Assembly (NCBI RefSeq): GCF_001742305.1
Contig: NZ_MJAT01000022.1
Span: forward strand, 186,001-250,000
DNA from: Desulfuribacillus stibiiarsenatis
Lineage (GTDB): Bacteria; Bacillota; Bacilli; Desulfuribacillales; Desulfuribacillaceae
Direction: 5' to 3'
DNA: 64,000 nucleotides
The notes beneath the pieces were generated by a model that saw nothing but the letters and a program-made list of their open reading frames with translations, was not told the origin of the DNA and made no database searches. A program made the position numbers and the translations under genes. The number at the start of each line of letters is the position of its first letter. The stretch's first letter is position 1. Shown in pieces: positions 2,513-15,711 of the stretch.

Positions 2513-2541
2513 AAAGGGGTTAACAGAAACCCCTTTCTTTT
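2513..2541. terminator. Bidirectional rho-independent terminator between tusA-like and lysR-like genes
   Basis: A nine-base-pair stem (AAAGGGGTT at 2513-2521 with AACCCCTTT at 2528-2536) is flanked by an A-run on the left and a T-rich tail on the right. It can therefore end both convergent transcripts. It overlaps the last codons of the LysR-type gene. Confidence 0.8.
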
Positions 2542-3452
2542 GAATGCAATAATTCCAGAAATGCTTGCGCTAAGGAAGATTTAATCTTCTTCGGATGATA
2601 GGCTAAGCTAATTGTATGATAGAATAAGAACTCTTTTACTTTAATTGCCTTTAAAGTTTTATAATGGAGTTCTTTTTTTACTGCTATGCGTGGCAATAGT
2701 GATAGGCCACGTTCCGACGCTACAGTAGATATGATGGCGCTTGTTTGGTCCATTTCCATTAGAATCTTTAATTTGTTCAGATCCATACCTTCTTGAATCA
2801 ACTTCGCTTCAATGGTAGCACGAATTCCAGACCCTTTCTCACGGAAAATCCACTGACAATTCATAAAATCCTGAATACAAATCTCATCAATATCCTCCCA
2901 AGTTTCAGTGTGAGGAACAACAATTACTAGCTCATCCCTAGCAATTCTCTGCAGCACAATGCCTTCGTCCTTCAATGTTTGTTTGTCCTCATCTTTAATG
3001 GGGCCCTCAAGAATTGCGAAATCGACACTTCCGTTAAGCGTAGATTCAATCGCTTCTTTCGTGTTCGTAATTCTAGTAATAATTTTACTATCTGGGTATT
3101 CCTCATGAAAAATAAAGAGTGTACATGGTAAGGCATACTGTCCCACAGTGCTAGATGTAGCTACTAAAAGCTCCGTTTGAACGTTATTCATTTTAGTTAC
3201 GTCTTTTCTCATATTCTCTGCGATGGTGACTAGCTTTTGTCCATATTCATAGACAAGATTACCAACCTCAGTAGGAGTTACACCTTTATTACTACGCTCA
3301 AGTAATGTCGCATTTAATTGGTTTTCTAACTCTTGAATTTGTAAGCTTAACGCCGGTTGTGACATGTGTAATGCTTTGGCAGCCTTAGAAATACTACCAT
3401 GTTGTATCACGTGACAAAAGGATTCTATAGCTGTTAAATTCATTCGGAGCAC
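2520..3452 (-). CDS. LysR-type transcriptional regulator (CysL/CysB-like)
   Basis: 310-residue LysR regulator. The N-terminal winged helix-turn-helix (residues about 4-62; FCHVIQHGSISKAAKALHMSQPALSLQIQELE) is textbook for the family. A periplasmic-binding-protein-like effector domain (about 90-300) follows. It is convergent with the TusA-like gene and divergent from the YeeE/YedE transporter. LysR proteins commonly control the divergent gene, so regulation of 3675-4850 is the simplest inference. An AGGTG ribosome site precedes the ATG on the minus strand. A perfect 8-bp direct repeat lies 22-37 bp upstream of its start. The effector is unknown; a sulfur metabolite is plausible from context only. 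Confidence 0.93.
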   Translation of the reverse strand: MLRMNLTAIESFCHVIQHGSISKAAKALHMSQPALSLQIQELENQLNATLLERSNKGVTPTEVGNLVYEYGQKLVTIAENMRKDVTKMNNVQTELLVATSSTVGQYALPCTLFIFHEEYPDSKIITRITNTKEAIESTLNGSVDFAILEGPIKDEDKQTLKDEGIVLQRIARDELVIVVPHTETWEDIDEICIQDFMNCQWIFREKGSGIRATIEAKLIQEGMDLNKLKILMEMDQTSAIISTVASERGLSLLPRIAVKKELHYKTLKAIKVKEFLFYHTISLAYHPKKIKSSLAQAFLELLHSKERGFC

Positions 3453-3674: not shown

Positions 3675-4850
3675 ATGATTCTATCAAAACAAAGGGAAAT
3701 TGGATTTATCCTTGTGATTGTCAATTTCATAGGAATCGTTGCTACTATCGTCTGCTCTAATTATAATCTAGCAATTGCTTGGAGCCTTGGGCTTTGTTTT
3801 GGTTTTGTGTTTCAACGGTCTAGGTTTTGTACTGTTGGTGCAATTCGTGATGTATTTTTGTTAGGAAATTATAATCTAGCCAAGGGTGTTTTAATCTATT
3901 TATCGTTATCAACTACGTTTTTCACAATCTTGTATACAATCTCTTTATTCAGTCCGTTAAAGATTGTTGCCAAACTGGAACCTATTGGTCTTATGACACT
4001 GATTGGCGCATTTATCTTTGGCATTGGCATGGTCATTGCCGGAGGATGTGCCTCTGGAATTCTAATCCGTATGGGTGAAGGGCTCATTATGCAGTGGTGG
4101 GGATTCCTTGGCCTCATTGTAGGTTCTTTTTTAGGTGTATGGCTATATGATTGGCATCATCCACTGAATTATGGCATTTCCTATGTGTTCCTTCCCGAGT
4201 ATCTTGGTTTGCCAATTGCTATGGTGTTGCAAATGACCGTTTTACTAGGAATGCTGGGTCTGTTTTATTATCTTGATTACAAGAACAAAATGATAGATTA
4301 TCCGTTTCCTCAGTCGTTTCAACAAACAGCAGCCTCTCTATCAGCGACCGATAAAATCCTCAAAAAACCATGGCCCTACACTTGGGGTGCTATTATTTTA
4401 GCGATTTTAAGCTCCTTTGTGTATTTGTGGAACCAATTCTGGGGAATTACGAATGGTCTTATCCATTTATTTGCGGGACTTACAGACCGTTTTATCATGG
4501 ACATCAACCACTGGACGTTCTTCGCAAAGAATCCGAATCAGCATTTGTTGTTCTTCAATCATCCACTGGTTCCCTTGGTGATCGCCACTGTCATAGGATC
4601 CTTTGTCGCATCATTACTTGCCAGAGAGTTCCGGATCCGCAAAACGGCCCACCCAAGGTTTATCTATTCAGCGATAATTGGCGGTTTCCTCATGGGATTT
4701 GGTGCTAGGTTGGCCCACGGATGTAATGTGAGTGCCGTTATGACGGGAATTCCAACATATTCCCTGCATGGCTGGGTATTCTTAATTTTCATGACTTTAG
4801 GTGTACTTGCGGGGATTCGAATCCTAACAAAGTACCTGGTTGTTTTTTAA
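3675..4850 (+). CDS. YeeE/YedE (TsuA-like) family sulfur-compound transporter
   Basis: 391-residue polytopic membrane protein, nearly all hydrophobic segments, probably nine or ten helices. It carries the duplicated YeeE/YedE motifs, each with an invariant-type Cys: QRSRFCTVGA (about residue 50), AGGCASGILIRMGEG (about 120) and ARLAHGCNVSAVMTG (about 350). Characterised family members (TsuA) import thiosulfate, moving it along membrane cysteines; YedE homologues are also linked to selenium metabolism. A TusA-like partner lies one gene away and a LysR gene is divergent. I infer uptake of thiosulfate or another sulfane-sulfur compound. A GGAGAG ribosome site precedes the ATG, and a terminator follows at 4903-4940, so the gene is monocistronic. 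Confidence 0.9.
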   Translation: MILSKQREIGFILVIVNFIGIVATIVCSNYNLAIAWSLGLCFGFVFQRSRFCTVGAIRDVFLLGNYNLAKGVLIYLSLSTTFFTILYTISLFSPLKIVAKLEPIGLMTLIGAFIFGIGMVIAGGCASGILIRMGEGLIMQWWGFLGLIVGSFLGVWLYDWHHPLNYGISYVFLPEYLGLPIAMVLQMTVLLGMLGLFYYLDYKNKMIDYPFPQSFQQTAASLSATDKILKKPWPYTWGAIILAILSSFVYLWNQFWGITNGLIHLFAGLTDRFIMDINHWTFFAKNPNQHLLFFNHPLVPLVIATVIGSFVASLLAREFRIRKTAHPRFIYSAIIGGFLMGFGARLAHGCNVSAVMTGIPTYSLHGWVFLIFMTLGVLAGIRILTKYLVVF

Positions 4851-5064: not shown

Positions 5065-5142
5065 GTGAGTAAGAGTTGAAATTTCACATTTTAATCACGA
5101 TTAATCGATTTTGTAAATTTTCAGAGAGAAAGGAGAATGGCA

Positions 5143-7329
5143 GTGAAAAAATTTAATAGAAGAACATTTATAAAAGCCGCCGCAGCTTCAGGTGTAGTTG
5201 GCTCAGTGCCAATGTATCTAAGTTTAGCAGACCATAAAAAAGTTGCTTCGGAAGAGCCACTTAAGAAAGTTTGGTCACAATGTAATGGTTGTGCGAGTAT
5301 GTGCTCCAAGGCTGTTTATTCCAAAAACAATCGCCTGTGGAAAGTAGAAGGTCATCCGTTACATTTGAAGTCTGGAGGCCGCTTATGTGCCCGAGGGCAT
5401 GGTATGGCAGCAGATGTCTATAATACTTCTCGCGTTACACAACCAATGAAACGCGTAGGCGATACATTTGAGCCAATATCTTGGGAACAGGCATTTTCAG
5501 AAATTGGAGAAAAGCTTGGAAAGATTGTGGAGGAACATAAAGGGGACTCCGTACTCTGGGTAGAACATGGCCCACGTGGTAAGTTCTATGCTGATATTTT
5601 ATTAGACTTAATCGGATCGCCAAATTATTGCACTCACTACTCTACATGCTTTACTTCAAAAACTAACGTATGGCCTAAGATGGTCGGCGATTCTTTAGCG
5701 GCAGATCATGAAAATGCCAACTACTTATTATTCGTCGGAAGAAACTTCGGCGGAGGGATTATCCCAAATGGAATGAACAAGATTCATAAGGCGATTGAAA
5801 GAGGAGCAAAGCTTGTTGTAGTAGATCCAAAATATAACGAAATGGCTAAAATTGCTCATGATTGGGTCCCAATCCGACCGGGTACTGACCTTGCATTCTA
5901 TCTAGGTCTTGCGCACACACTTATCTCGGAGAACCTATATGATCGTAATTTTGTGAACAGAAACGTACTAGGATTTAGCGAATTCTGGGAAGCAAATAAA
6001 ACGGCAAGTGCCGACTGGGCTTCAGAGGTTACTGGCATTCCAGCGGATAAAATCCGTGAAATTGCTAGGGATATGGCAGCTAGCGCACCAAAAGCGATAT
6101 TAGAACCAGGATGGCATGGATTGAACTGTCACTATGTGAACAGTACGCAAACAGCCCAAATGAATGTAATACTCAATGCTTTAGTCGGCAATTTCTATAA
6201 AATCGGTGGGCTGTACCCAGGGCAAGATATCCCATTTGGATCGGTTGACCGCAAAATGCCACCGTTCAAACGTAAGGGAGAACGTGCAGACGGCGCTGGT
6301 GTGAAAGGGAAGTTCCCAACAGTTGAACCTGGTCGTGGAATTGCGCAAATCACACCACAATTGGTAGAGGAAGGGTTAATTAAAGCGGTATTTATTTATC
6401 ACTATAACCCATTACGTACAGCACCTAACCCAGAATACCAGAAGAAAATCAAAGATGCTGAATTAGTAGTCGTCATTCCGACGGATTGGAATGAAACAGC
6501 GGTTCACACGGCGCACTACATCCTTCCAGAAGACTATTATCTGGAAAGAACAGAAACACCAAGGAATAATAGTGGTCATTTAGCGCACATATACCCACAA
6601 ATCTCAATTCGTGCGAAAGCTCTAGACCCGATTCACGATACGAAGCCACTCCGTGAAATCGTAGCAGGAATTTGTGAAGCAATGGGATATGAAGGATACT
6701 TTAATTTTACTATCGAAGACGAAGTCAAAGCAGCGTTGTCAACGGTAGAAGGGTTAACACCGGAGCGTTTATATGAAGAAGGAACAATAGAGTTTACGAC
6801 CCATTTCATGGAAGGAGTTCCATTAGAGTTTAAGACTTCCACGAAGAAGATTAACTTTAAGGTTCCGGAATATGAAGCCAACGGATTTAGCGGAGTCCCT
6901 ACGTGGGTACCTCCTGCTACATGGCCGAAGGAAGAGAATGAATTCCGTCTTATCCATGGGAAACAGCCTTGGCATTCCCATAGTATTACTGCCAATAATC
7001 CGTACTTGATGGCAATTACGAAAGCGTATAACGGGGAATGGATGTGGATGAATAAAGTTCGTGCCGATAAGCTAGGAATTAAAAATGGCGATACGGTTAC
7101 AGTGCAATCTTCCGTTTCCACCAAACAGGCAAAAGTAAAAGTGACAGAATTGGTTCACCCTGATTGCGTATGGATTTCTAACTCCTATGGAAACTTCTCT
7201 GAGAGACAAAAGGACGGTTACGGTGTAGGTGTAAACTTCAATGATTTCTTAGAGTTGCAAGTCGAACCTATGGCGGGCGGTACCAATAGTCAAGAAATCA
7301 TCGTAAAAATAACGAAGGGGGTAAGCTAA
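5143..7329 (+). CDS. Tat-exported molybdopterin oxidoreductase, PsrA/PhsA-like catalytic subunit
   Basis: About 728 residues, the usual size of polysulfide/thiosulfate reductase catalytic subunits and shorter than typical ArrA or TtrA. A GTG start at 5143 is preferred: AAGGAG (5130-5135) sits 7 bases before it but only 1 base before the in-frame ATG at 5137. Features in order: twin-arginine signal (NRRTFIK), a [4Fe-4S] motif C-x2-C-x3-C with a fourth Cys in GGRLCARG, the Mo-bisMGD domains, and a C-terminal molydopterin-binding domain (HGKQPWHSH, about residues 610-725). HYSTCFTSK, about residue 175, probably supplies the Mo-ligating Cys. It acts on the outer face of the membrane with the next two gene products. 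The substrate could be polysulfide, sulfur, thiosulfate or an arsenic oxyanion; the rhodanese neighbours favour sulfur. Confidence 0.93.
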   Translation: MKKFNRRTFIKAAAASGVVGSVPMYLSLADHKKVASEEPLKKVWSQCNGCASMCSKAVYSKNNRLWKVEGHPLHLKSGGRLCARGHGMAADVYNTSRVTQPMKRVGDTFEPISWEQAFSEIGEKLGKIVEEHKGDSVLWVEHGPRGKFYADILLDLIGSPNYCTHYSTCFTSKTNVWPKMVGDSLAADHENANYLLFVGRNFGGGIIPNGMNKIHKAIERGAKLVVVDPKYNEMAKIAHDWVPIRPGTDLAFYLGLAHTLISENLYDRNFVNRNVLGFSEFWEANKTASADWASEVTGIPADKIREIARDMAASAPKAILEPGWHGLNCHYVNSTQTAQMNVILNALVGNFYKIGGLYPGQDIPFGSVDRKMPPFKRKGERADGAGVKGKFPTVEPGRGIAQITPQLVEEGLIKAVFIYHYNPLRTAPNPEYQKKIKDAELVVVIPTDWNETAVHTAHYILPEDYYLERTETPRNNSGHLAHIYPQISIRAKALDPIHDTKPLREIVAGICEAMGYEGYFNFTIEDEVKAALSTVEGLTPERLYEEGTIEFTTHFMEGVPLEFKTSTKKINFKVPEYEANGFSGVPTWVPPATWPKEENEFRLIHGKQPWHSHSITANNPYLMAITKAYNGEWMWMNKVRADKLGIKNGDTVTVQSSVSTKQAKVKVTELVHPDCVWISNSYGNFSERQKDGYGVGVNFNDFLELQVEPMAGGTNSQEIIVKITKGVS

Positions 7330-7330
7330 T

Positions 7331-7870
7331 ATGGCTCGCTATGCAATGTTGATTGATGCTTCTCGTTGTACTGGTTGCGGAGCATGTCGCGTCGCGTGTC
7401 AGATGCAGCATCAATTACCACCGAATATGTCGTTTAATCGACTGGAATTTAGAGAGCGTGGGATATTCCCAACAGTAAAACAAGAGATTGTACCTGTTCA
7501 ATGTATGCATTGTGACAATCCTCCTTGTCTGCACGTATGTCCTACGAACGCAACATATAAGCGCTCCGATGGCATAGTGCTTGTGGATCACGACAAATGC
7601 ATTGGCTGTAAGTATTGTATGACGGCATGCCCGTATGACGCTCGTACATTAAATGAAAAGCGTGTTCCAGAGAAATGTAAGTTCTGCTCTGAATATGTCG
7701 TACAGGGCCAGGAACCTCCATGTGCTAGTACGTGTATGTGTAGTGTACGTATCTTTGGCGACCTCGATGACCCTGATAGTGAAATTAGTAAAGCAATGGC
7801 AAAAAAATCTGTATATCAGTTGATTCCGGAAAAAGGAACCCGTCCGCGAATCTATTATGTGAAAAAATAG
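7331..7870 (+). CDS. Four-cluster [4Fe-4S] electron-transfer subunit (PsrB/DmsB family)
   Basis: 179 residues of the DmsB/PsrB/PhsB family. Four cysteine groups are visible: CTGCGACRVAC, CMHCDNPPCLHVC, CIGCKYCMTAC and CKFCSEYVV with a later CASTC. This is the arrangement that carries four [4Fe-4S] clusters linking the membrane quinol subunit to the catalytic subunit. There is no signal peptide, so it is presumably exported as a complex with the Tat-bearing subunit. It starts 1 bp after the catalytic gene stop, with a GGGGG-rich ribosome site, and is clearly co-transcribed. A TorD-type chaperone downstream fits co-folding before export. Confidence 0.95.
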   Translation: MARYAMLIDASRCTGCGACRVACQMQHQLPPNMSFNRLEFRERGIFPTVKQEIVPVQCMHCDNPPCLHVCPTNATYKRSDGIVLVDHDKCIGCKYCMTACPYDARTLNEKRVPEKCKFCSEYVVQGQEPPCASTCMCSVRIFGDLDDPDSEISKAMAKKSVYQLIPEKGTRPRIYYVKK

Positions 7871-7885
7871 AGGAGGGGTGAGACG

Positions 7886-9055
7886 ATGAAAAATGCAAAA
7901 TTATGGATAATCATATCCGCTATTATGATAGCCATTGGCGCAATTGGTGGAGTAATGATTCTTATCAATGGTGAGTCGGCTATGGGTACAACGGATCGAG
8001 TGCCATGGGGTGGTATGATTGGTGGTTATGAATTTTTTGCCGTTATGAGTACTGGACTATGTATGATAGCTGCTTTAGGAATCGTATTCCAATATAAAAG
8101 TTTCATACCAATTGCAAAGAGAGCAATAGTACTTGCGTTACTTTCATTAGTATCAGCATTTACAATTCTTCTTTTAGAACTTGGTAGACCTTGGAACATG
8201 ATTTACATTGCTTTTAGTCCAAATTTCATGTCCTCCATATGGTGGATGGGCGTGTTCTACGGAATATATATGGGGCTGTTAATGTTAATCCTCTACAGCA
8301 TGTATAAAGGCAATGAAAAACTTACGAAACAATTAACTTTGGTAGGTGCGATAGCAGCGATATTAGCTGTAAGCAATATAGGGAACTTATTTGGACTTGT
8401 GAATTCTCGTGGCCATTGGGCGACATCCATTTTACCAATCTATTTCATTATTGGTGCGCTTCTATCGGCAGTAGCACTACTAGCGGTAACAACGTATATT
8501 ACAGGTTCAAACGGAGGCGCGAAAGCCAAGCAATCTCTGCAATCGATACCGACAATTGGGAACTTGTTAGCGTTACTACTAGGCTCAACTATGATTATGG
8601 TTGCAGCAAAAACAATTGCTGGCCTATATGGTGGATTGCCAGGGAAATATGAGGCGACGATGGCTTTAATCAATGGGCCGTTAAGCATGTATTTCTGGGT
8701 ATTTGAAGTGTCAATCGGCATGGTCATTCCAATGTTCCTGCTTTTGAAATATCAAGGCAAGGATTTAGGGAAAATTGCTCTTGCAGGTGGAATGGCATTG
8801 GTTGGTATCTTCTTTATGAGATATGACTTTGTTGTTGCTGGTCAGATTGTCCCGTTGAAGGTAGTAGATGGTCTAAAAGAGACTGTATACCATGCGTATC
8901 ACACAGCATTACCAGCCTGGGCAGTTATGATTGGAGCGTTTGGAATAGGAATTCTTTTATATATACTAGCGGAACAAAAATTTGATTTAAATGATAGTTC
9001 CACAAGTAATCAAAAACGGATGGAGAACGACAAGGTCGTGAGTGCCCATGTTTAA
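7886..9055 (+). CDS. NrfD/PsrC-type membrane anchor and quinol-interacting subunit
   Basis: 389-residue integral membrane protein of the NrfD/PsrC superfamily, with about nine or ten hydrophobic segments beginning at residue 5 and a short charged C-terminus. Family members bind menaquinol and either transfer electrons to the Fe-S subunit or couple the reaction to proton movement. A strong ribosome site (GAGGAGGGGTG) lies before the ATG. It is third in the operon, 15 bp after the Fe-S gene; its 3' end overlaps the chaperone gene by 14 bp. Together, 5143-9055 encode a complete three-subunit respiratory reductase. Confidence 0.92.
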   Translation: MKNAKLWIIISAIMIAIGAIGGVMILINGESAMGTTDRVPWGGMIGGYEFFAVMSTGLCMIAALGIVFQYKSFIPIAKRAIVLALLSLVSAFTILLLELGRPWNMIYIAFSPNFMSSIWWMGVFYGIYMGLLMLILYSMYKGNEKLTKQLTLVGAIAAILAVSNIGNLFGLVNSRGHWATSILPIYFIIGALLSAVALLAVTTYITGSNGGAKAKQSLQSIPTIGNLLALLLGSTMIMVAAKTIAGLYGGLPGKYEATMALINGPLSMYFWVFEVSIGMVIPMFLLLKYQGKDLGKIALAGGMALVGIFFMRYDFVVAGQIVPLKVVDGLKETVYHAYHTALPAWAVMIGAFGIGILLYILAEQKFDLNDSSTSNQKRMENDKVVSAHV

Positions 9056-9701
9056 TTCGAAAGCATATGCTGATATTTTTGGCATCTTGTCTGAATTTTA
9101 TAAATTTCCTAACCAAGAATTCTTCGACTATATTAACGACCGTAGCTTTCAGCAGGAAATGGGAGAACTGATTCGACATACGGAATTGAATTTCGATATC
9201 CGCATTGTTCGACCTTTTGTCAACCTCAAAGAAATGAAAAGCGAGTACACCCGATTGTTTATTGGGATTACAGGCACGGCAGCAATCCCTGTAGAATCTG
9301 TCTACAAGATTTGGACTACTGATGAATCTGCTGCTATGAGCTTTGCTAAAAGCAAAGGGTATCTCATGGGGGATTCTGCATTACATGTGCAACACTTACT
9401 CGAAATGTTTCAAATGGAAGTTGTTGAAGAACTGGGTAAGAAACCAGATCATATTAGCGTTTTACTAGAATTGCTAGCATATTTCATAGAGCACAGAAGC
9501 TTAGATGAAACCTGGATGTATATTCAAGACCACTTTGATTGGTTGGGAGACTTCAAAACAGCTATCGAGGAGCTAGAAGGTCATGAATTCTATAAGTACG
9601 TAACTGATTTATTAATCGAGTTAATCGATGAGTATAAGGGATTACTCCGGTCTAAGCTGGTGCAAGAAATGAAAGAGGAGCAACTAGAAGGAATCCAATA
9701 A
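9042..9701 (+). CDS. TorD/DmsD-family molybdoenzyme maturation chaperone
   Basis: 219-residue all-helical cytoplasmic protein of the TorD family. These chaperones bind the Tat signal of a partner molybdoenzyme and hold it for cofactor insertion before export. The GTG at 9042 overlaps the preceding gene by 14 bp; an ATG at 9048 is an equally possible start, and neither has a strong ribosome site, suggesting translational coupling. The sequence has the acidic helical pattern of the family (LFIGITGTAAIPVESVY, about residues 70-90). Position directly after the reductase genes makes the Tat-bearing subunit its likely client. Confidence 0.9.
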   Translation: MPMFNSKAYADIFGILSEFYKFPNQEFFDYINDRSFQQEMGELIRHTELNFDIRIVRPFVNLKEMKSEYTRLFIGITGTAAIPVESVYKIWTTDESAAMSFAKSKGYLMGDSALHVQHLLEMFQMEVVEELGKKPDHISVLLELLAYFIEHRSLDETWMYIQDHFDWLGDFKTAIEELEGHEFYKYVTDLLIELIDEYKGLLRSKLVQEMKEEQLEGIQ

Positions 9702-9715
9702 GAGGAGGGATGTAG

Positions 9716-9910
9716 ATGAAGACACTTCGTAAGAAACTACTATTACTCATTGCGATAGTAACTCTATCGATGACAATCGTCGGATGTAAGGAAGTGCCGG
9801 TTGTGAAAGTGGTGGACCCTACTCAAGAAGTAGTCTCAAATATAGTAAAATATGAAGCCCCTGAGCGAACTATAGCGCCAGAGCCTAAAGAAAAGACAGG
9901 CGTCAGTTGA
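9716..9910 (+). CDS. Small lipoprotein of unknown function (64 aa)
   Basis: Very short product with a lipoprotein signal: KK-rich start, hydrophobic core, lipobox TIVGC with Cys24. Only about 40 residues remain after processing, rich in Val, Pro and Glu and without a recognisable domain. The ribosome site AGGAGGG lies 5-6 bases before the ATG, and the gene starts 14 bp after the chaperone gene, so it belongs to the reductase operon. Its hydrophobic core and lipobox resemble those of the rhodanese lipoproteins downstream; it could be a remnant of one or a small assembly factor. I do not recognise a family. Confidence 0.75.
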   Translation: MKTLRKKLLLLIAIVTLSMTIVGCKEVPVVKVVDPTQEVVSNIVKYEAPERTIAPEPKEKTGVS

Positions 9911-9923
9911 GGCTAAAATGTCA

Positions 9924-9942
9924 GATTCGCTGGATGCGAATC
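9924..9942 (+). other. Intercistronic hairpin
   Basis: Perfect 7-bp stem GATTCGC / GCGAATC around a 5-base loop, in the 111-bp gap between the small lipoprotein and the first rhodanese gene. No T-run follows, so it looks like an mRNA processing or stability element rather than a terminator. Confidence 0.45.
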
Positions 9943-10021
9943 AAATAGCAAGTACTAGATTGAATTATGCTTAAGTAGAACTAGGTAGCTTAATAGATGT
10001 AAAAAAGAAGGAGGGAAACTA

Positions 10022-11293
10022 GTGATTATTAATAAAAGATGGCATATAACTTCCGTTCTTGCAGTCATGTTAGTCTTTGCTATGTTGCTTGTAGGTTGTA
10101 GCTCCACAGCATCTGTAGCAGTTAGAGAATATCAAGTTCCTTCATTGCCATTAGATCCTCCAGTTTATGAAGGAGTTAAAGCGCCAGATGGCATGAGCAA
10201 TGCGGTACCAGTTGAGCCACATTTGAATTATATTGAAACCTTTGAATTAATGAATCTCTATTTAAAAGGCAAGCCAGTTAGTAATGAAAGAGATTCTTAT
10301 GAACAATATGCGAAGGATTGGGAGTTTGTAATAGTCGATTCACGTCCACCTGCAAAGTATAACGAGGCACATATCAATGGAGCGATCAATATCCCTGATG
10401 CCGAGTTTGATAAGTTTGCAAATCGTCTACCAGAGGACAAATCAAAACTACTAATCTTCTATTGTAATGGTTGGGACTGTCCACTTAGCCCAAGCTCTGC
10501 AAATAAGGCAATCAAATTAGGATATACCAATGTTCGTGTTTATCAAGAGGGTGTTGCGGGCTGGAAATCTGCTGGGAATTACTTCGCAACTACACCACAA
10601 CACGTAGCTTCAAGAATTACTGATGATTATGTAAGTGGTACTGCATCAGGGGCGAAAGCTTTTAGAATTATAGATGCGAGACCATATGCTTCTTATTTTC
10701 AAGCGCATGTACCTACATCATTTCCGTTAGATGATGGGATATTCAGTAAGAATTCTAAATCATTTCCGCTAGACAAGAATACAGAAATCATCTTCTACTG
10801 TGGAGGATTCTACTGTTCGAAAAGTCATAACGAGGCAAGACTTCTTTCGACTTTGGGATATACAGATGTAAAAGTCATGGTAGGGGGATTGCCAGAATGG
10901 AAGAAAGCAGGCTTACCTACATTTGGTACAGAGAGTTCAGGTGTGAAGTTTGATATTTCTGGTGGGAAAGCGAATCTAGCATTGACACCAGAGGAATGGA
11001 AAAAGAAATACGATGCTGGAAAGGTAGTAGTAGTTGACGTTCGTACGGCAGATGAACGCTCAGCAGGCGCGATTCCTAACTCAATTCACCTAGTAGATAA
11101 AGATATTCTAGCAAACCCAAAGATTATTTCTGAAAAACTACCAGCAGATAAAAATGTAACAGTTCTTATCCATTGTGCATCTGGTGCAAGGGCTTCCGGC
11201 GTAGCTAGTAAATTTACTGATGAAGGGTACAAAAACAGTTTCTATCTCAATAGTAAGATTACAATTAAAGCAGATGGAACGTTCGGCTTCTAA
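10022..11293 (+). CDS. Triple-rhodanese lipoprotein (first copy)
   Basis: 423-residue lipoprotein: signal with lipobox LVGC, a linker, then three rhodanese domains (about residues 70-185, 190-295 and 315-420). Catalytic-position cysteines are Cys148 (loop CNGWDC), Cys260 (loop CGGFYC) and Cys385 (loop CASGAR). Only the third is the canonical six-residue rhodanese loop; the first two have a second Cys four residues on (C-x4-C). The GTG start is supported by GAAGGAGGG upstream. The protein would be anchored outside the cell on the same face as the reductase. Rhodaneses carry sulfane sulfur as a Cys persulfide, so delivery or capture of polysulfide sulfur is inferred. The next gene is a close paralogue. 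Confidence 0.9.
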   Translation: MIINKRWHITSVLAVMLVFAMLLVGCSSTASVAVREYQVPSLPLDPPVYEGVKAPDGMSNAVPVEPHLNYIETFELMNLYLKGKPVSNERDSYEQYAKDWEFVIVDSRPPAKYNEAHINGAINIPDAEFDKFANRLPEDKSKLLIFYCNGWDCPLSPSSANKAIKLGYTNVRVYQEGVAGWKSAGNYFATTPQHVASRITDDYVSGTASGAKAFRIIDARPYASYFQAHVPTSFPLDDGIFSKNSKSFPLDKNTEIIFYCGGFYCSKSHNEARLLSTLGYTDVKVMVGGLPEWKKAGLPTFGTESSGVKFDISGGKANLALTPEEWKKKYDAGKVVVVDVRTADERSAGAIPNSIHLVDKDILANPKIISEKLPADKNVTVLIHCASGARASGVASKFTDEGYKNSFYLNSKITIKADGTFGF

Positions 11294-11334
11294 AACAACA
11301 GAAGGTATCTAAGCGATGGAAACCTCTGATGTTA

Positions 11335-11393
11335 TATAGAAAGCTTAGTTCAGATGGAGTTATTACTCCACCTGAATTCTAGTTGCACTTATT
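11335..11393 (-). repeat. Inverted copy of the hairpin-mosaic repeat
   Basis: Read on the minus strand it begins ATAAGTGCAACTA and ends AACTAAGCTTTCTATA, matching the ends of the copy at 14501-14585 (ATAAGTGCAACTAAG ... TCTTTA). The hairpin between them is different: CAGATGGAG / CTCCACCTG around TTATTA. It directly precedes leader element B, as the copy at 3561 precedes leader A. Confidence 0.65.
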
Positions 11394-11396
11394 TCG

Positions 11397-11459
11397 AAGC
11401 TTGGCAGCACTTATCTCCCACCTATAGAAGTGGGGGTATAGAAACGCCGCTGAGATAAA
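11397..11459 (+). promoter_or_regulatory. Recurrent structured leader element, copy B
   Basis: Stem CTCCCAC / GTGGGGG around the loop CTATAGAA, enclosed by GGC ... GCC, with the 3' block CGCCGCTGAGATAA. It ends 26 bp before the start of the second rhodanese lipoprotein gene. Compared with copy C, a C-G pair replaces a T-A pair at the stem tip, a compensatory change suggesting that RNA structure is conserved. Confidence 0.6.
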
Positions 11460-11485
11460 ATTAAAAAAATATAGGAGGAAAAACA

Positions 11486-12727
11486 ATGTTAAAAAAGTTA
11501 CTCAACATGAAAGCATTATTGTTAATTTTAATGCTTGGCTTGGCACTTACTCTAACAGGTTGCGAAGAGTTAGAGGCAATGTCTGCTGGAGCATCAGCTC
11601 CAACAAAGCAAGTACAGGTGCCAGCGGGAATTACTAACGCAGTACCAATCAAAGCACATTTAAATTATGTGACAACTGAAGAAGTAATGGTATTAATGAA
11701 AAGTGTTAAGCCTGCAAGTGCAGCGCGTACGAAGTATGAGCAAGCTCCTCCAGAATGGAACTTCGTATTAGTTGATTCTCGTCCTTTTGGTAAGTATGCG
11801 GAAGGACATATCAATGGTGCAATAAACATTCCTGAAGAAGAATTCGAAAAATTCAAAGATCGTTTGCCTACAGATAAGAATACGAAGCTAATTTTCTATT
11901 GCGGTGGTTGGGCTTGCCCACTAAGTTCAGCATCTGCTGAAAAGGCAATTGCATTAGGTTACACGGATGTTTCTGTATTCCAAGCTGGTACAGATCATGG
12001 TTGGTCTTTAACAAACAACTACTATGTAATCACTCCTGAATATCTAGCACCAAAAATTCAAAACGCTTACATGTCAGATGTAAATAAAAAGCCATTCAAG
12101 TTAATTGATGCAAGACCATATACTTCATACTTCGAATCTCATATTCCAATGGCATATCCAATGGATGACGAATTATTCAGTAAGAAGTATCTATCTACAA
12201 TGCCAACTGACAAGTCAACAGAAATCATTATTTATTGCGGTGGCTTCTTCTGCAGCAAGAGCCATAATGTTGCAAAGGAATTGACAGCTCTTGGTTACAC
12301 AAATGTAAAAGTATTAGCTGGAGGACTACCAGCATGGAAAGAAGCAAAGCTTCCTACATTTGGCACAGCTACTGGCGGAGTAAGCTTTGATATCAATGCA
12401 GGCAAGAAAGACCCAGGTTTAACTCCTATAGATTGGAAAGCTGCTTATGATAAAGGTGGAGTAATCGTAGTAGATGTACGTACTGCTGATGAGCGTGCAG
12501 CTGGTGCAATCCCTAATTCAATTCACATTCCAAGTGGAGAAATCAATGCGAGTCCAGCAGTCATTGCTGAAAAAATTGCAGATAAGAACGCTACAATTCT
12601 AATTCATTGCGCATCTGGTGCACGTGCAGCTGGCGTAATTGATAAGTTTTTAGATCAAGGATATAAGAATGCTGTGTACTTAAAGACAGGAATTAAAATT
12701 GCTGCCGATGGGACATTCTCATTCTAA
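11486..12727 (+). CDS. Triple-rhodanese lipoprotein (second copy)
   Basis: 413-residue paralogue of the previous protein, clearly a tandem duplicate that has diverged. Lipobox LTGC, then three rhodanese domains with catalytic-position Cys139 (CGGWAC), Cys251 (CGGFFC) and Cys375 (CASGAR). As in the first copy, domains one and two have the C-x4-C loop and domain three the canonical loop. The ribosome site AGGAGG lies ahead of the ATG. A repeat copy and leader B separate it from its paralogue, so it may be separately controlled. It is expected on the cell surface; a sulfane-sulfur transferase role is inferred from the domains and from the reductase upstream. Confidence 0.9.
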   Translation: MLKKLLNMKALLLILMLGLALTLTGCEELEAMSAGASAPTKQVQVPAGITNAVPIKAHLNYVTTEEVMVLMKSVKPASAARTKYEQAPPEWNFVLVDSRPFGKYAEGHINGAINIPEEEFEKFKDRLPTDKNTKLIFYCGGWACPLSSASAEKAIALGYTDVSVFQAGTDHGWSLTNNYYVITPEYLAPKIQNAYMSDVNKKPFKLIDARPYTSYFESHIPMAYPMDDELFSKKYLSTMPTDKSTEIIIYCGGFFCSKSHNVAKELTALGYTNVKVLAGGLPAWKEAKLPTFGTATGGVSFDINAGKKDPGLTPIDWKAAYDKGGVIVVDVRTADERAAGAIPNSIHIPSGEINASPAVIAEKIADKNATILIHCASGARAAGVIDKFLDQGYKNAVYLKTGIKIAADGTFSF

Positions 12728-12761
12728 TCCAGGAAATCAATCTATAAATCAATCTATGTTC

Positions 12762-12816
12762 GCGGCGCCATCTCCCATTTATAGAATGGGAGTTTTGGTA
12801 AAGCCGTTGAGAAAAA
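12762..12816 (+). promoter_or_regulatory. Recurrent structured leader element, copy C
   Basis: Perfect 7-bp stem CTCCCAT / ATGGGAG (12772-12778 with 12786-12792) inside CCA/TGG and an outer CGGC/GCCG (12763-12766 with 12803-12806), followed by TTGAGA. TTGGTAAAGCC matches copy E at 63006-63068. It lies 23 bp before the start of the two-domain rhodanese gene. Confidence 0.6.
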
Positions 12817-12838
12817 CTAATCATTGGGGGAAAGCAAC

Positions 12839-13840
12839 ATGTTCAAACAAAATAAAGCATTTAAGTCGTTGTTAATTGCATTGTCATTGATTTTAGCAGT
12901 AACTCTTGTTGGTTGTGGCAAAACTGCTGAACCAGTACAACAGACACCAGCTCCTGTAGCAACTCCGGAACCAGCACCAGCACCAGCTCCAGAGAAACCT
13001 AAATTAAAGGCAGAAGATGTAGTTCTTGAGCGCGCGAAAGACTTTGCTGCTGCTCGTCATGCAGGTCAGTCGTATATGATTGCAGCGAAAGACGCTTCTG
13101 AAAAAATTGCTGCAGGTAATATCTTTGTTCTTGATGTTCGTTCTGCTGAGGACTTTGAAAAGGGTCACATTGCAGGTGCTTTTAACGTAAGTTTCGTAGG
13201 TGGAGAATTAGCAACATTACTAGATCGCCTCCCACAAGACAAGGAAATCTATGTATTATGCTATTCAGGTCAACAAGCGAACCAAGTAAATGCAGCGTTA
13301 AATGTTGCTGGCTTCAATTCTAAAGCAATCACAGGTGGTGCAGGAAGTTGGACGAAGGCAGAGCTTACTCTCCCTGAGACAGGTGCAAATCCTTTATCAG
13401 CAGCGCCAGCAGCATCAGAGCCTACAACAGATGCGGATAAGTTAGCTTGGGAAAAGGTTGAAGGGTATCTAGGGTCGGTTATAAGTGCGGAAACAAGCAA
13501 TTTCATTGCTCCAGCTAAATTACACGAAGAATTAACTGCAAGTGCAGATAAGTACTATGTAGTCGACATCCGTGTACCTAAAGCAGATAACTATGATCAA
13601 GGTCATATTGAAGGTTCACATTTCTACTCATGGGAAGACATGGAGAAAAAAATGGCTGAATTCCCTATGGATAAGAAGATTGTCGTAGGATGCTGGTCTG
13701 GTAACAATGCAGGTCAGGCAGTAGCGTTACTTCGTATGAACGGATACGATGCTCATTTGCTTACAAGTGGAATTGATAACGGCTGGTTACAAAAAACTAA
13801 GCCAGAAGCAGAAAGAAAGCCTCTACCATTAGTGAAATAA
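12839..13840 (+). CDS. Double-rhodanese lipoprotein
   Basis: 333 residues. The ATG at 12839 is chosen because GGGGGAAAG (12826-12834) is correctly spaced for it; an upstream in-frame TTG overlaps that site. Lipobox LVGC, a Pro/Ala-rich linker (about residues 35-55), then two rhodanese domains with catalytic-position Cys141 (loop CYSGQQ) and Cys285 (loop CWSGNN). Both loops lack the usual Arg at the sixth position, which may change substrate preference. It is the third of four rhodanese lipoproteins in the cluster. The copper-amine-oxidase-like secreted protein starts 12 bp downstream, so the two are co-transcribed. Confidence 0.9.
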   Translation: MFKQNKAFKSLLIALSLILAVTLVGCGKTAEPVQQTPAPVATPEPAPAPAPEKPKLKAEDVVLERAKDFAAARHAGQSYMIAAKDASEKIAAGNIFVLDVRSAEDFEKGHIAGAFNVSFVGGELATLLDRLPQDKEIYVLCYSGQQANQVNAALNVAGFNSKAITGGAGSWTKAELTLPETGANPLSAAPAASEPTTDADKLAWEKVEGYLGSVISAETSNFIAPAKLHEELTASADKYYVVDIRVPKADNYDQGHIEGSHFYSWEDMEKKMAEFPMDKKIVVGCWSGNNAGQAVALLRMNGYDAHLLTSGIDNGWLQKTKPEAERKPLPLVK

Positions 13841-13852
13841 GGAGATGACCCA

Positions 13853-14467
13853 ATGAAAAAAATCATTACGGTTGCAGTGGCGGCACTCATAACAATGGGA
13901 ATCGCTACCTATGATGTGCAGGTTGTAGAAGCTTCACCATGTGAAGTGGATACGCCGGCACCAGCAAAGCCAGCAACACCGGCACCAGCACCGGCACCAG
14001 CAAAGCCAGCAACACCGGCACCGGCGCCAGCAAAACCAGCAACACCAGCGCCAACACCTGCAGCCACTCCAGCTGTCACAACAGCAGCGAAAGTGCCTGT
14101 GACGAATGTTGATTTCAAATTCCTAGGAAAGCCTGGTAAAGCATCGATTGTCATTATTGACAAAGAGGTTTACGTAAGCGTTCGATCATTTGCACAAGCA
14201 CTAGGATCAGATGTAGGTTGGGATGCAAATTCCAAGCAAGTTGTGATTAAAGGTGACGTAATAGGCACTCCACTTGAAATTAGGGGTCAAAGTGGTCAAA
14301 AAGGCATTACTGTAAATAAAAAATTGTTTGTTATGCAAAGAGCTGTAACAAATGTTGATGGCACTTTATATGTGCGAGCTCACTGCATTGCAGGCATTAC
14401 AGGTTCCATCATGAAATCGCCTGTAAAAGTAACATTTGCGAAAAATGTGCTAGAGTTTAAAGAATAG
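13853..14467 (+). CDS. Secreted protein with Pro/Ala repeat stalk and copper amine oxidase N-terminal-like domain
   Basis: 204 residues. An N-terminal Sec signal (cleavage probably after VVEA, about residue 25) is followed by a low-complexity Pro/Ala/Lys/Thr stalk (about 30-80). The rest is a copper amine oxidase N-terminal-like fold (about 85-204; VYVSVRSFAQALGSDVGWDANSK...), common in cell-surface proteins of Bacillota as a non-catalytic attachment or binding module. There is no lipobox. Ribosome site AAGGAGATGA; it starts 12 bp after the rhodanese gene and ends at a strong terminator. A structural or cell-wall role for the surface sulfur apparatus is a guess. Confidence 0.85.
   Translation: MKKIITVAVAALITMGIATYDVQVVEASPCEVDTPAPAKPATPAPAPAPAKPATPAPAPAKPATPAPTPAATPAVTTAAKVPVTNVDFKFLGKPGKASIVIIDKEVYVSVRSFAQALGSDVGWDANSKQVVIKGDVIGTPLEIRGQSGQKGITVNKKLFVMQRAVTNVDGTLYVRAHCIAGITGSIMKSPVKVTFAKNVLEFKE
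13954..14070 (+). repeat. In-frame tandem repeats coding a Pro/Ala stalk
   Basis: Imperfect repeats built on CCAGCAAAGCCAGCAACACC encode PAKPATPAP units three times, with extra PAPA spacers. The tract is more GC-rich than its surroundings and likely to vary in copy number. Confidence 0.8.
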
Positions 14468-14471
14468 ATTG

Positions 14472-14494
14472 AACCCCCCTTCGTGGGGGTTTTT
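14472..14494 (+). terminator. Rho-independent terminator of the reductase/rhodanese operon
   Basis: AACCCCC / GGGGGTT stem with a short TTCG-type loop and a T5 tail, directly after the stop codon of 13853-14467. Confidence 0.9.
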
Positions 14495-14500
14495 CACTTG

Positions 14501-14585
14501 TACTATCAGAAAGTATAAATTTTTTTATGTAGATAGTATAAGTGCAACTAAGGCATTCTCACGGCGAATGCCAAGTTGTCTTTAG
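14501..14585 (+). repeat. Hairpin-mosaic repeat, copy R1
   Basis: Two hairpins. The first is TACTATC / GATAGTA (14501-14507 with 14532-14538). The second is GGCATTC / GAATGCC inside AACT / AAGTT (about 14546-14577), ending in GTCTTTA. This is the most compact full copy and serves as the reference for the others at 21037, 27118, 36685, 59310 and the inverted ones at 3561 and 11335. Confidence 0.7.
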
Positions 14586-14637
14586 CGAAAGTCAGGTTTT
14601 CTAAAAAAAACAATCGAGAAGAAACGGGGAGTGTAAC

Positions 14638-15711
14638 TTGAAGGAGAAAAGTTACGAAATTTTAACGAAGTGTATACGATTAACAGTTATCATGCTTCTC
14701 TTGTTGAGTCTGACAATGGTAGGCTGCAACAAACAAGGTCAAGAGACAAAGGCAGAATTATCGCCTGTAAAACAAGAGCAACCGAACACTTCAGCTGCGA
14801 GTCAAGAGCTTAAAGTAGATGAATTCGCAATTCTTCAAGCAGCAGCACAGGAATATGTGCAACGCCCGCTAATGCTAATGTCTACCGATGAAGTTTATCA
14901 GAAAGCAGTAGTGGAGAAAAATAGCGAGTATCAATTAATAAGCACGCGCTATGAAGAGGATTATAATAGAGGGCATATAGAAGGTGCAGAGTGGATTACG
15001 CGCACTGAGTTTGCGAAGGAAGAAACGCTTAATAGAATTGACAAAAACCGTAAGACAATATTATATTGCTATACGGCTAGTGGTGCCACGTATGTATCTG
15101 CAATGCTGAATCTTATGGGCTATGAAGCGTACGGAATGAGCATTGGCATGACAGAATGGACTGCCAATAGAGAAGTAGCTGGGACACAAAGAACACCTGT
15201 GGCTATCGAGAATTATCCGATTGAATCTGCTGAATATCAACTCCAACAAACATACCCGTTACCTAAATTAACGACAGGAAAAACGAGCGTAGAAGAAATT
15301 GTACATGAAATGGGAATGAATTATTTTGCTTCGGGTAAGGCAAGGTGGATTAGTGCCGAAGAGATAAAAGTGGCTTATGACACGGATGCGTTAGAAGAGT
15401 TTATATTAATTGACGTAAGGGACAAGAGTAAATATGATAAAGGGCATGTTCCAAAAGCAGTCAACATTGCGTATCGTCAGACAATGGATATGACGAACCT
15501 ACAAAAACTTCCGACGGACAAAAAACTTATTATCATTAGTGAAGATGGACAATCCGCTACACAAATCGCAGCGTTGTATAGTTTCTTGGGTTATGACGCA
15601 CGTACGATGTTGTATGGCATGTTGGCCTGGTCAAATGACCCCAATGTTGTAGGAACGAGTTTATGGAAGGGTCCACGCAATTATCCTTGGGTTGGCAGTG
15701 TAAAACCGTAA
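14638..15711 (+). CDS. Double-rhodanese lipoprotein with one degenerate domain
   Basis: 357 residues from a TTG start with GGGGAGTG just upstream; without it the signal peptide would be lost. Lipobox MVGC, then two rhodanese domains. Domain one has catalytic-position Cys144 (loop CYTASGA). Domain two has Ser301 at that position (ISEDGQSA), so it should be unable to form a persulfide. It is separated from the upstream operon by a terminator and repeat R1, so probably has its own promoter, which I could not identify. It ends the sulfur cluster; a cell-wall synthesis gene follows. Confidence 0.88.
   Translation: MKEKSYEILTKCIRLTVIMLLLLSLTMVGCNKQGQETKAELSPVKQEQPNTSAASQELKVDEFAILQAAAQEYVQRPLMLMSTDEVYQKAVVEKNSEYQLISTRYEEDYNRGHIEGAEWITRTEFAKEETLNRIDKNRKTILYCYTASGATYVSAMLNLMGYEAYGMSIGMTEWTANREVAGTQRTPVAIENYPIESAEYQLQQTYPLPKLTTGKTSVEEIVHEMGMNYFASGKARWISAEEIKVAYDTDALEEFILIDVRDKSKYDKGHVPKAVNIAYRQTMDMTNLQKLPTDKKLIIISEDGQSATQIAALYSFLGYDARTMLYGMLAWSNDPNVVGTSLWKGPRNYPWVGSVKP

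Follow-up and report, generated by a model that had tools for sequence, protein, structure and literature searches.

A Srr/Psr-type reductase operon with four rhodanese lipoproteins in Desulfuribacillus stibiiarsenatis, and apparent selenocysteine in a carrier of its relatives

Why should an operon for a single molybdenum reductase carry four lipid-anchored rhodaneses? The question is raised by a stretch of 64,000 nucleotides (the window; positions 186,001-250,000 of contig NZ_MJAT01000022.1) in the 3.12 Mb genome of Desulfuribacillus stibiiarsenatis. An earlier note, made from this DNA alone, had described a molybdoenzyme, an Fe-S subunit, an NrfD anchor and a TorD chaperone, followed by a tiny lipoprotein and four rhodaneses (3+3+2+2 domains), and had proposed a lipid-anchored sulfur relay beside the reductase. 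Open reading frames and Pfam searches bear out this gene content. We regard it as likely that the locus encodes a respiratory chalcogen reductase of the Srr/Psr type with an enlarged external set of rhodanese lipoproteins, polysulfide being the likely substrate. The parts of the operon, in window coordinates and with the rhodaneses named R1 to R4, are as follows.

5137-7329, + strand: SrrA/PsrA-type molybdenum catalytic subunit, exported by twin-arginine translocation (Tat) (Pfam; solved relative 2vpw; Srr clade in the tree)
7331-7870, + strand: SrrB/PsrB-type four-cluster Fe-S subunit (Fer4 families; 16 clustered cysteines read from the sequence)
7886-9055, + strand: SrrC/PsrC (NrfD) membrane anchor (PF03916, 104 bits)
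9042-9701, + strand: SrrD, TorD-type assembly chaperone (PF02613)
9716-9910, + strand: lipoprotein of 64 amino acids, conserved in the sister species (lipobox IVGC; locus L058, 11934-12128, 73 bits)
10022-11293, + strand: R1, SrrF, a three-rhodanese lipoprotein (PF00581 three times; alignment)
11486-12727, + strand: R2, a second SrrF copy, three-rhodanese lipoprotein (PF00581 three times; 56% identity to R1)
12824-13840, + strand: R3, a two-rhodanese lipoprotein of Desulfuribacillus type (PF00581 twice; 63% to the L058 copy)
13853-14467, + strand: secreted Pro/Ala-rich protein with a PF07833 domain (Pfam; a homologue adjoins the selenocysteine (Sec)-type SrrF of the sister species)
14475-14489, + strand: terminator-like hairpin after the PF07833 gene and before R4 (hairpin search)
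14638-15711, + strand: R4, a divergent SrrE-like two-rhodanese lipoprotein (PF00581 twice; best matches are srrE genes elsewhere)

The catalytic gene lies where it had been placed, save that it starts at 5137 rather than 5143. Its product matches the Pfam families Molybdopterin, Molydop_binding, 4Fe4S and TAT (the last below the curated cut-off), and has a single 4Fe-4S site, a Tat signal and a cysteine ligand to molybdenum, as in Srr; with the Fe-S and NrfD genes it makes up a complete PsrABC set. The best solved relative is Thermus thermophilus PsrA (2vpw, E 8e-89), in which the molybdenum ligand Cys173 aligns with Cys171 of the window protein, so that the ligand is conserved. The match to the thiosulfate reductase PhsA model NF012032 reached 385.9 bits against a curated cut-off of 694, and the enzyme is not placed in that family. 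No Rfam family was matched within the window.

Relatives were drawn from about 1000 genomes, all of Bacillota and some sampled twice. A single contig scan with the catalytic subunit as query returned only one locus. The catalytic subunit of the sister species, Desulfuribacillus alkaliarsenatis AHT28, is 79% identical to that of the window, and those of loci L057, L060, L061 and L062 are 56-59% identical; further SrrA loci (L102, L103 and L105-L108) were reached through SrrF. The relatives share one form of operon, in which a SrrE-type rhodanese lipoprotein, usually of two domains, precedes A-B-C-D and a three-domain rhodanese follows; E-A-B-C-D-F with matching sizes is seen in L060, L061, L062, L105, L106 and L108. 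A tree built from 29 catalytic subunits puts every one of the 12 SrrE/SrrF-flanked enzymes on one side of a branch with full support (Shimodaira-Hasegawa-like approximate likelihood ratio test, SH-aLRT, 100), and none of the 17 other Psr/Phs-type enzymes falls inside. None of those 17 has the SrrE/SrrF set, including the second Psr/Phs enzyme of the window genome itself, whose operon has no rhodanese. Conversely, every SrrF found lies beside SrrA or, where the contig is cut short, beside SrrD, or else its genome bears SrrA, and a search of plasmid records found no SrrF. The proposed pairing of reductase and rhodaneses thus passes the co-occurrence check that went with it; the refuting pattern was not seen, and a lipid-anchored relay of sulfane sulfur next to the reductase is in keeping with the results. 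Outside the Srr clade, at L073 (3783-5383), two single-domain rhodanese lipoproteins stand beside a Psr/Phs-type operon, which suggests a pairing of independent origin.

The enlargement is evident from the rhodaneses themselves. Pfam PF00581 finds three domains each in R1 and R2 and two each in R3 and R4, where five is the usual set elsewhere; with 10 of the 17 rhodanese-domain matches of the whole genome in this locus, their clustering is not due to chance. Lipoboxes can be read in all four proteins and in the 64-residue lipoprotein (LVGC, LTGC, LVGC, MVGC and IVGC, respectively). The catalytic cysteine is kept in nine of the ten domains (R1 C148, C260 and C385; R2 C139, C251 and C375; R3 C146 and C290; R4 C144). 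The count of ten therefore stands by Pfam, but the tenth domain is degenerate, with Ser301 of R4 at the expected position; loss of this cysteine in the second domain is common in the alignment of SrrE homologues. The loops of R1 are CNGWDCPLS, CGGFYCSKSH and CASGARA, and the first two SrrF domains share a C-x-G-x-x-C loop. The 'stalk protein' of the earlier note is indeed secreted, being 204 amino acids with a Pro/Ala linker and the PF07833 domain, but has no lipobox.

Both two-domain (E) and three-domain (F) genes are thus present at the window locus, with the E-like ones downstream and F doubled. R1 and R2 group with support of 99/99 in a SrrF clade of four within Desulfuribacillus, whilst R3 is distant from the SrrE of other genomes and R4 finds its best matches, at no more than 30% identity, in srrE genes upstream of srrA elsewhere. 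On the tree, SrrF is duplicated within Desulfuribacillus, an event that probably predates the separation of the two species; as judged from domains and homology, the ten domains are accounted for by this duplication plus added SrrE-like genes. SrrF stays below the cut-off of every NCBIfam model, Sud is not one of the 16 solved structures related to R1 (E 0.001), and an AlphaFold model of R1 built with three sequences as input was poor (predicted local distance difference test, pLDDT, 57).

The earlier note knew of no described system like this one, but there are precedents. The respiratory selenite reductase operon srrEABCDF of Bacillus selenitireducens MLS10, as described in PMC12481199 after Wells 2019, has two rhodanese genes, with products of ~38 and ~45 kDa, together with a PsrA-type Tat catalytic subunit of ~80 kDa, a four-cluster subunit, an anchor of NrfD size and a chaperone; its six-gene order matches the close relatives of the window operon. 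The window operon differs in its four rhodanese genes, all of them downstream, its two SrrF copies, the extra small lipoprotein and the PF07833 protein. Judged by how the operons of its clade are built, and with MLS10 compared by description only, the window operon is probably of Srr type. The idea of such a relay has already been put forward, with proteomics, for the soda-lake haloalkaliphile Desulfurivibrio dismutans AMeS2, whose psr operon includes a three-rhodanese lipoprotein and is upregulated on sulfur, accompanied by further secreted sulfurtransferases and YeeE/YedE (PMC12142623). That organism is Gram-negative and has one rhodanese gene in the operon, and the likeness to SrrF is by description only. 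Wolinella Sud and, in Halodesulfurarchaeum, HTSR_1348 with PsrA (PMC5437934) are likewise external sulfurtransferases for Psr, each with one rhodanese protein per reductase. Against the described Srr and Desulfurivibrio psr systems, the window operon is unusual only in having as many as four rhodanese genes with ten domains.

By analogy with these families, menaquinol would supply electrons that travel by way of SrrC (NrfD) and then SrrB to SrrA, whose molybdenum site would lie on the external side of the membrane. The SrrE- and SrrF-type lipoproteins would draw zero-valent sulfur from polysulfide, carry it as persulfide, and either pass it to SrrA or keep it close by.

Would the acceptor be sulfur or selenium? 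The physiological acceptor of a true Srr would be selenite, or alternatively elemental selenium; its rhodaneses would hold selenium as perselenide, keeping Se(0) outside the cell or feeding SrrA. The anatomy, equal to that of srrEABCDF, and the presence of SelB and tRNA-Sec in the window genome favour this, as do the neighbouring YedE and TusA, which resemble families of selenium metabolism (below cut-off) but fit transport of thiosulfate or sulfur equally well. Physiology points the other way. AHT28 can use S0 and thiosulfate for growth but neither selenite nor selenate (PMC3386488), the latter pair tried at one concentration, 5 mM; the sister species is thus without the selenite respiration of MLS10. 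Apart from that of the operon, AHT28 has a single NrfD gene, which belongs to a cluster of multihaem cytochromes. Natroniella sulfidigena, which carries the operon, is a respirer of sulfur and polysulfide (PMC4158274). Since AHT28, with 79% SrrA identity, has sulfur and thiosulfate as respiratory acceptors and cannot use selenite, since Natroniella respires sulfur or polysulfide, and since psr of D. dismutans rises on sulfur, polysulfide or sulfur appears the likelier substrate in Desulfuribacillus, with selenite the rival; we consider a true Srr here rather unlikely. In AHT28, at L118 (5559-10938), the NrfD gene and an Fe-S gene form a pair between two multihaem c-type cytochrome genes, an arrangement unusual for a Gram-positive.

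Four observations weigh against a quinol-linked polysulfide reductase served by all of these rhodaneses. Activity has been measured for just one enzyme from an operon of this kind, that of B. selenitireducens, and it was reported as a selenite reductase (PMC12481199). R4 possibly forms a separate transcription unit: with terminator-like hairpins at 12772-12792, after R2, and at 14475-14489, R3 and R4 may be transcribed only in part with the operon or apart from it. In AHT28 the orthologous operon (L058) holds R1 and R3 together with a two-domain protein of another kind, and a separate UGA-containing SrrF lies away from the reductase (L059, 9857-11113, - strand). Finally, quinol coupling is not universal: the operons of Natroniella sulfidigena (L057, 12200-13393) and genome G687 (L107, 8485-9693) read srrE-A-B-D-F without srrC. 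As the whole of G687 (99% complete) lacks an NrfD gene, this reductase may dispense with its customary quinol anchor in hosts of the Halanaerobiales type.

The genes just upstream bear on a second alternative.

2279-2512, + strand: TusA-type sulfur carrier (PF01206, 54 bits; equivalent place in the sister genome, L058)
2520-3452, - strand: divergent LysR regulator (PF00126/PF03466; conserved in L058; adjoins YedE/TusA in L107)
3675-4850, + strand: YeeE/YedE-type sulfur (or selenium) transporter (PF04143, 214 bits; NCBIfam YedE/TsuA matches below cut-off)

With this transporter and carrier recurring by the operon in L058 and L107, the rhodaneses might be mainly protective or assimilatory, scavenging polysulfide, cyanide or thiosulfate for YeeE/TusA uptake without serving the reductase. 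Such a role is improbable in view of the distribution: SrrE/SrrF accompany SrrA in every species found, whether YedE/TusA are nearby or not, and do not stand beside the 17 other Psr/Phs enzymes. Upstream of the Srr operon in L107 (1339-2680), YedE is split in two, and a TusA gene separates the halves.

Returning to the carriers of the reductase, we found that the second cysteine of the SrrF middle domain (CGGFxC; C265 in R1, C256 in R2) is replaced by an in-frame UGA in 5 of 15 SrrF genes, namely those of L057 (Natroniella), L059 (AHT28), L104 and L106 (one genus) and L107; the two window copies have cysteine. The UGA is the sole stop in each gene, with ~160 of ~420 codons open and conserved beyond it, and the character has changed at least three times on the SrrF tree. 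SelB was above cut-off in all six genomes tested (the window's own, AHT28, Natroniella and three Cys-type hosts; G482, G547 and G687 lay outside the search), and tRNA-Sec in seven of eight, the exception being G547 (85% complete), with a match below cut-off only. A hairpin follows each of the five UGAs at a matching place: over the 45 bases that come next, the folding energy runs from -10 to -16 kcal/mol in the UGA genes and from -2 to -12 in the Cys genes, and the share of synonymous recodings at least as stable is 0.002, 0.010, 0.046, 0.09 and 0.10, the two values near 0.1 belonging to near-identical genes. SrrF of these relatives therefore combines a UGA at a redox cysteine, Sec-decoding genes and a hairpin, the hairpin part being modest. 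That the UGAs are disabling mutations or sequencing errors is very improbable, for although only two of the five hairpins fall below p 0.02 and a comparable hairpin is present in one of the Cys genes (L102), all five UGAs occupy one invariant cysteine column in at least three lineages, in frames that stay open, in hosts with matches to SelB, tRNA-Sec or both.

The rhodaneses in a list of prokaryotic selenoproteins from 2026 have the forms UxxS, UxxG (two), CxU and UxxxxU (TsoB) (PMC13188914). The CxxxxU rhodanese is absent from that list, where TsoB comes nearest. TsoB (NF045694), a selenoprotein resembling a rhodanese/DsbD fusion (PMC13188914), is also the best NCBIfam match of R1 by E-value; the match covers the rhodanese part, with equal spacing of the two redox residues in the loop, but scores 103.4 bits against a cut-off of 805 and includes no DsbD part, and SrrF has CxxxxC or CxxxxU and lies in a Srr operon. 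Selenocysteine in the carrier of some relatives appears to be the unreported part of the system. Because Sec replaces it in some relatives, the second cysteine is probably redox-active; it might resolve or take over the catalytic persulfide, the exact step being our inference. We suggest, tentatively, that SrrF represents a new family of selenoproteins: surface proteins of three rhodanese domains, the middle one bearing a CxxxxU or CxxxxC redox loop that would cleave or release the bound chalcogen. The rhodanese would then take an active redox part beside the reductase and be more than a passive carrier. Neither this position, nor the degenerate tenth domain, nor the relationship to Srr had been noticed in the earlier note.

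The PsrA/PhsA/SrrA lineage is treated as a single family in published trees (PMC10100899, PMC7331816). Our results tie multi-rhodanese surface proteins to one definable clade within the Psr family, and, because substrate cannot be read from the catalytic subunit alone, operon content could predict which homologues act on zero-valent chalcogen. The natural exchange of Cys and Sec at a single position suggests that the sulfur relay includes a redox step. In such genomes the selenoprotein SrrF may be concealed by truncated gene calls. The L059 SrrF of AHT28 adjoins a PF07833 protein resembling that at 13853-14467 of the window. R2 was considered as the orthologue of this Sec-type gene, as its N-terminal sequence and the neighbouring PF07833 gene hint, but the tree gives no resolution.

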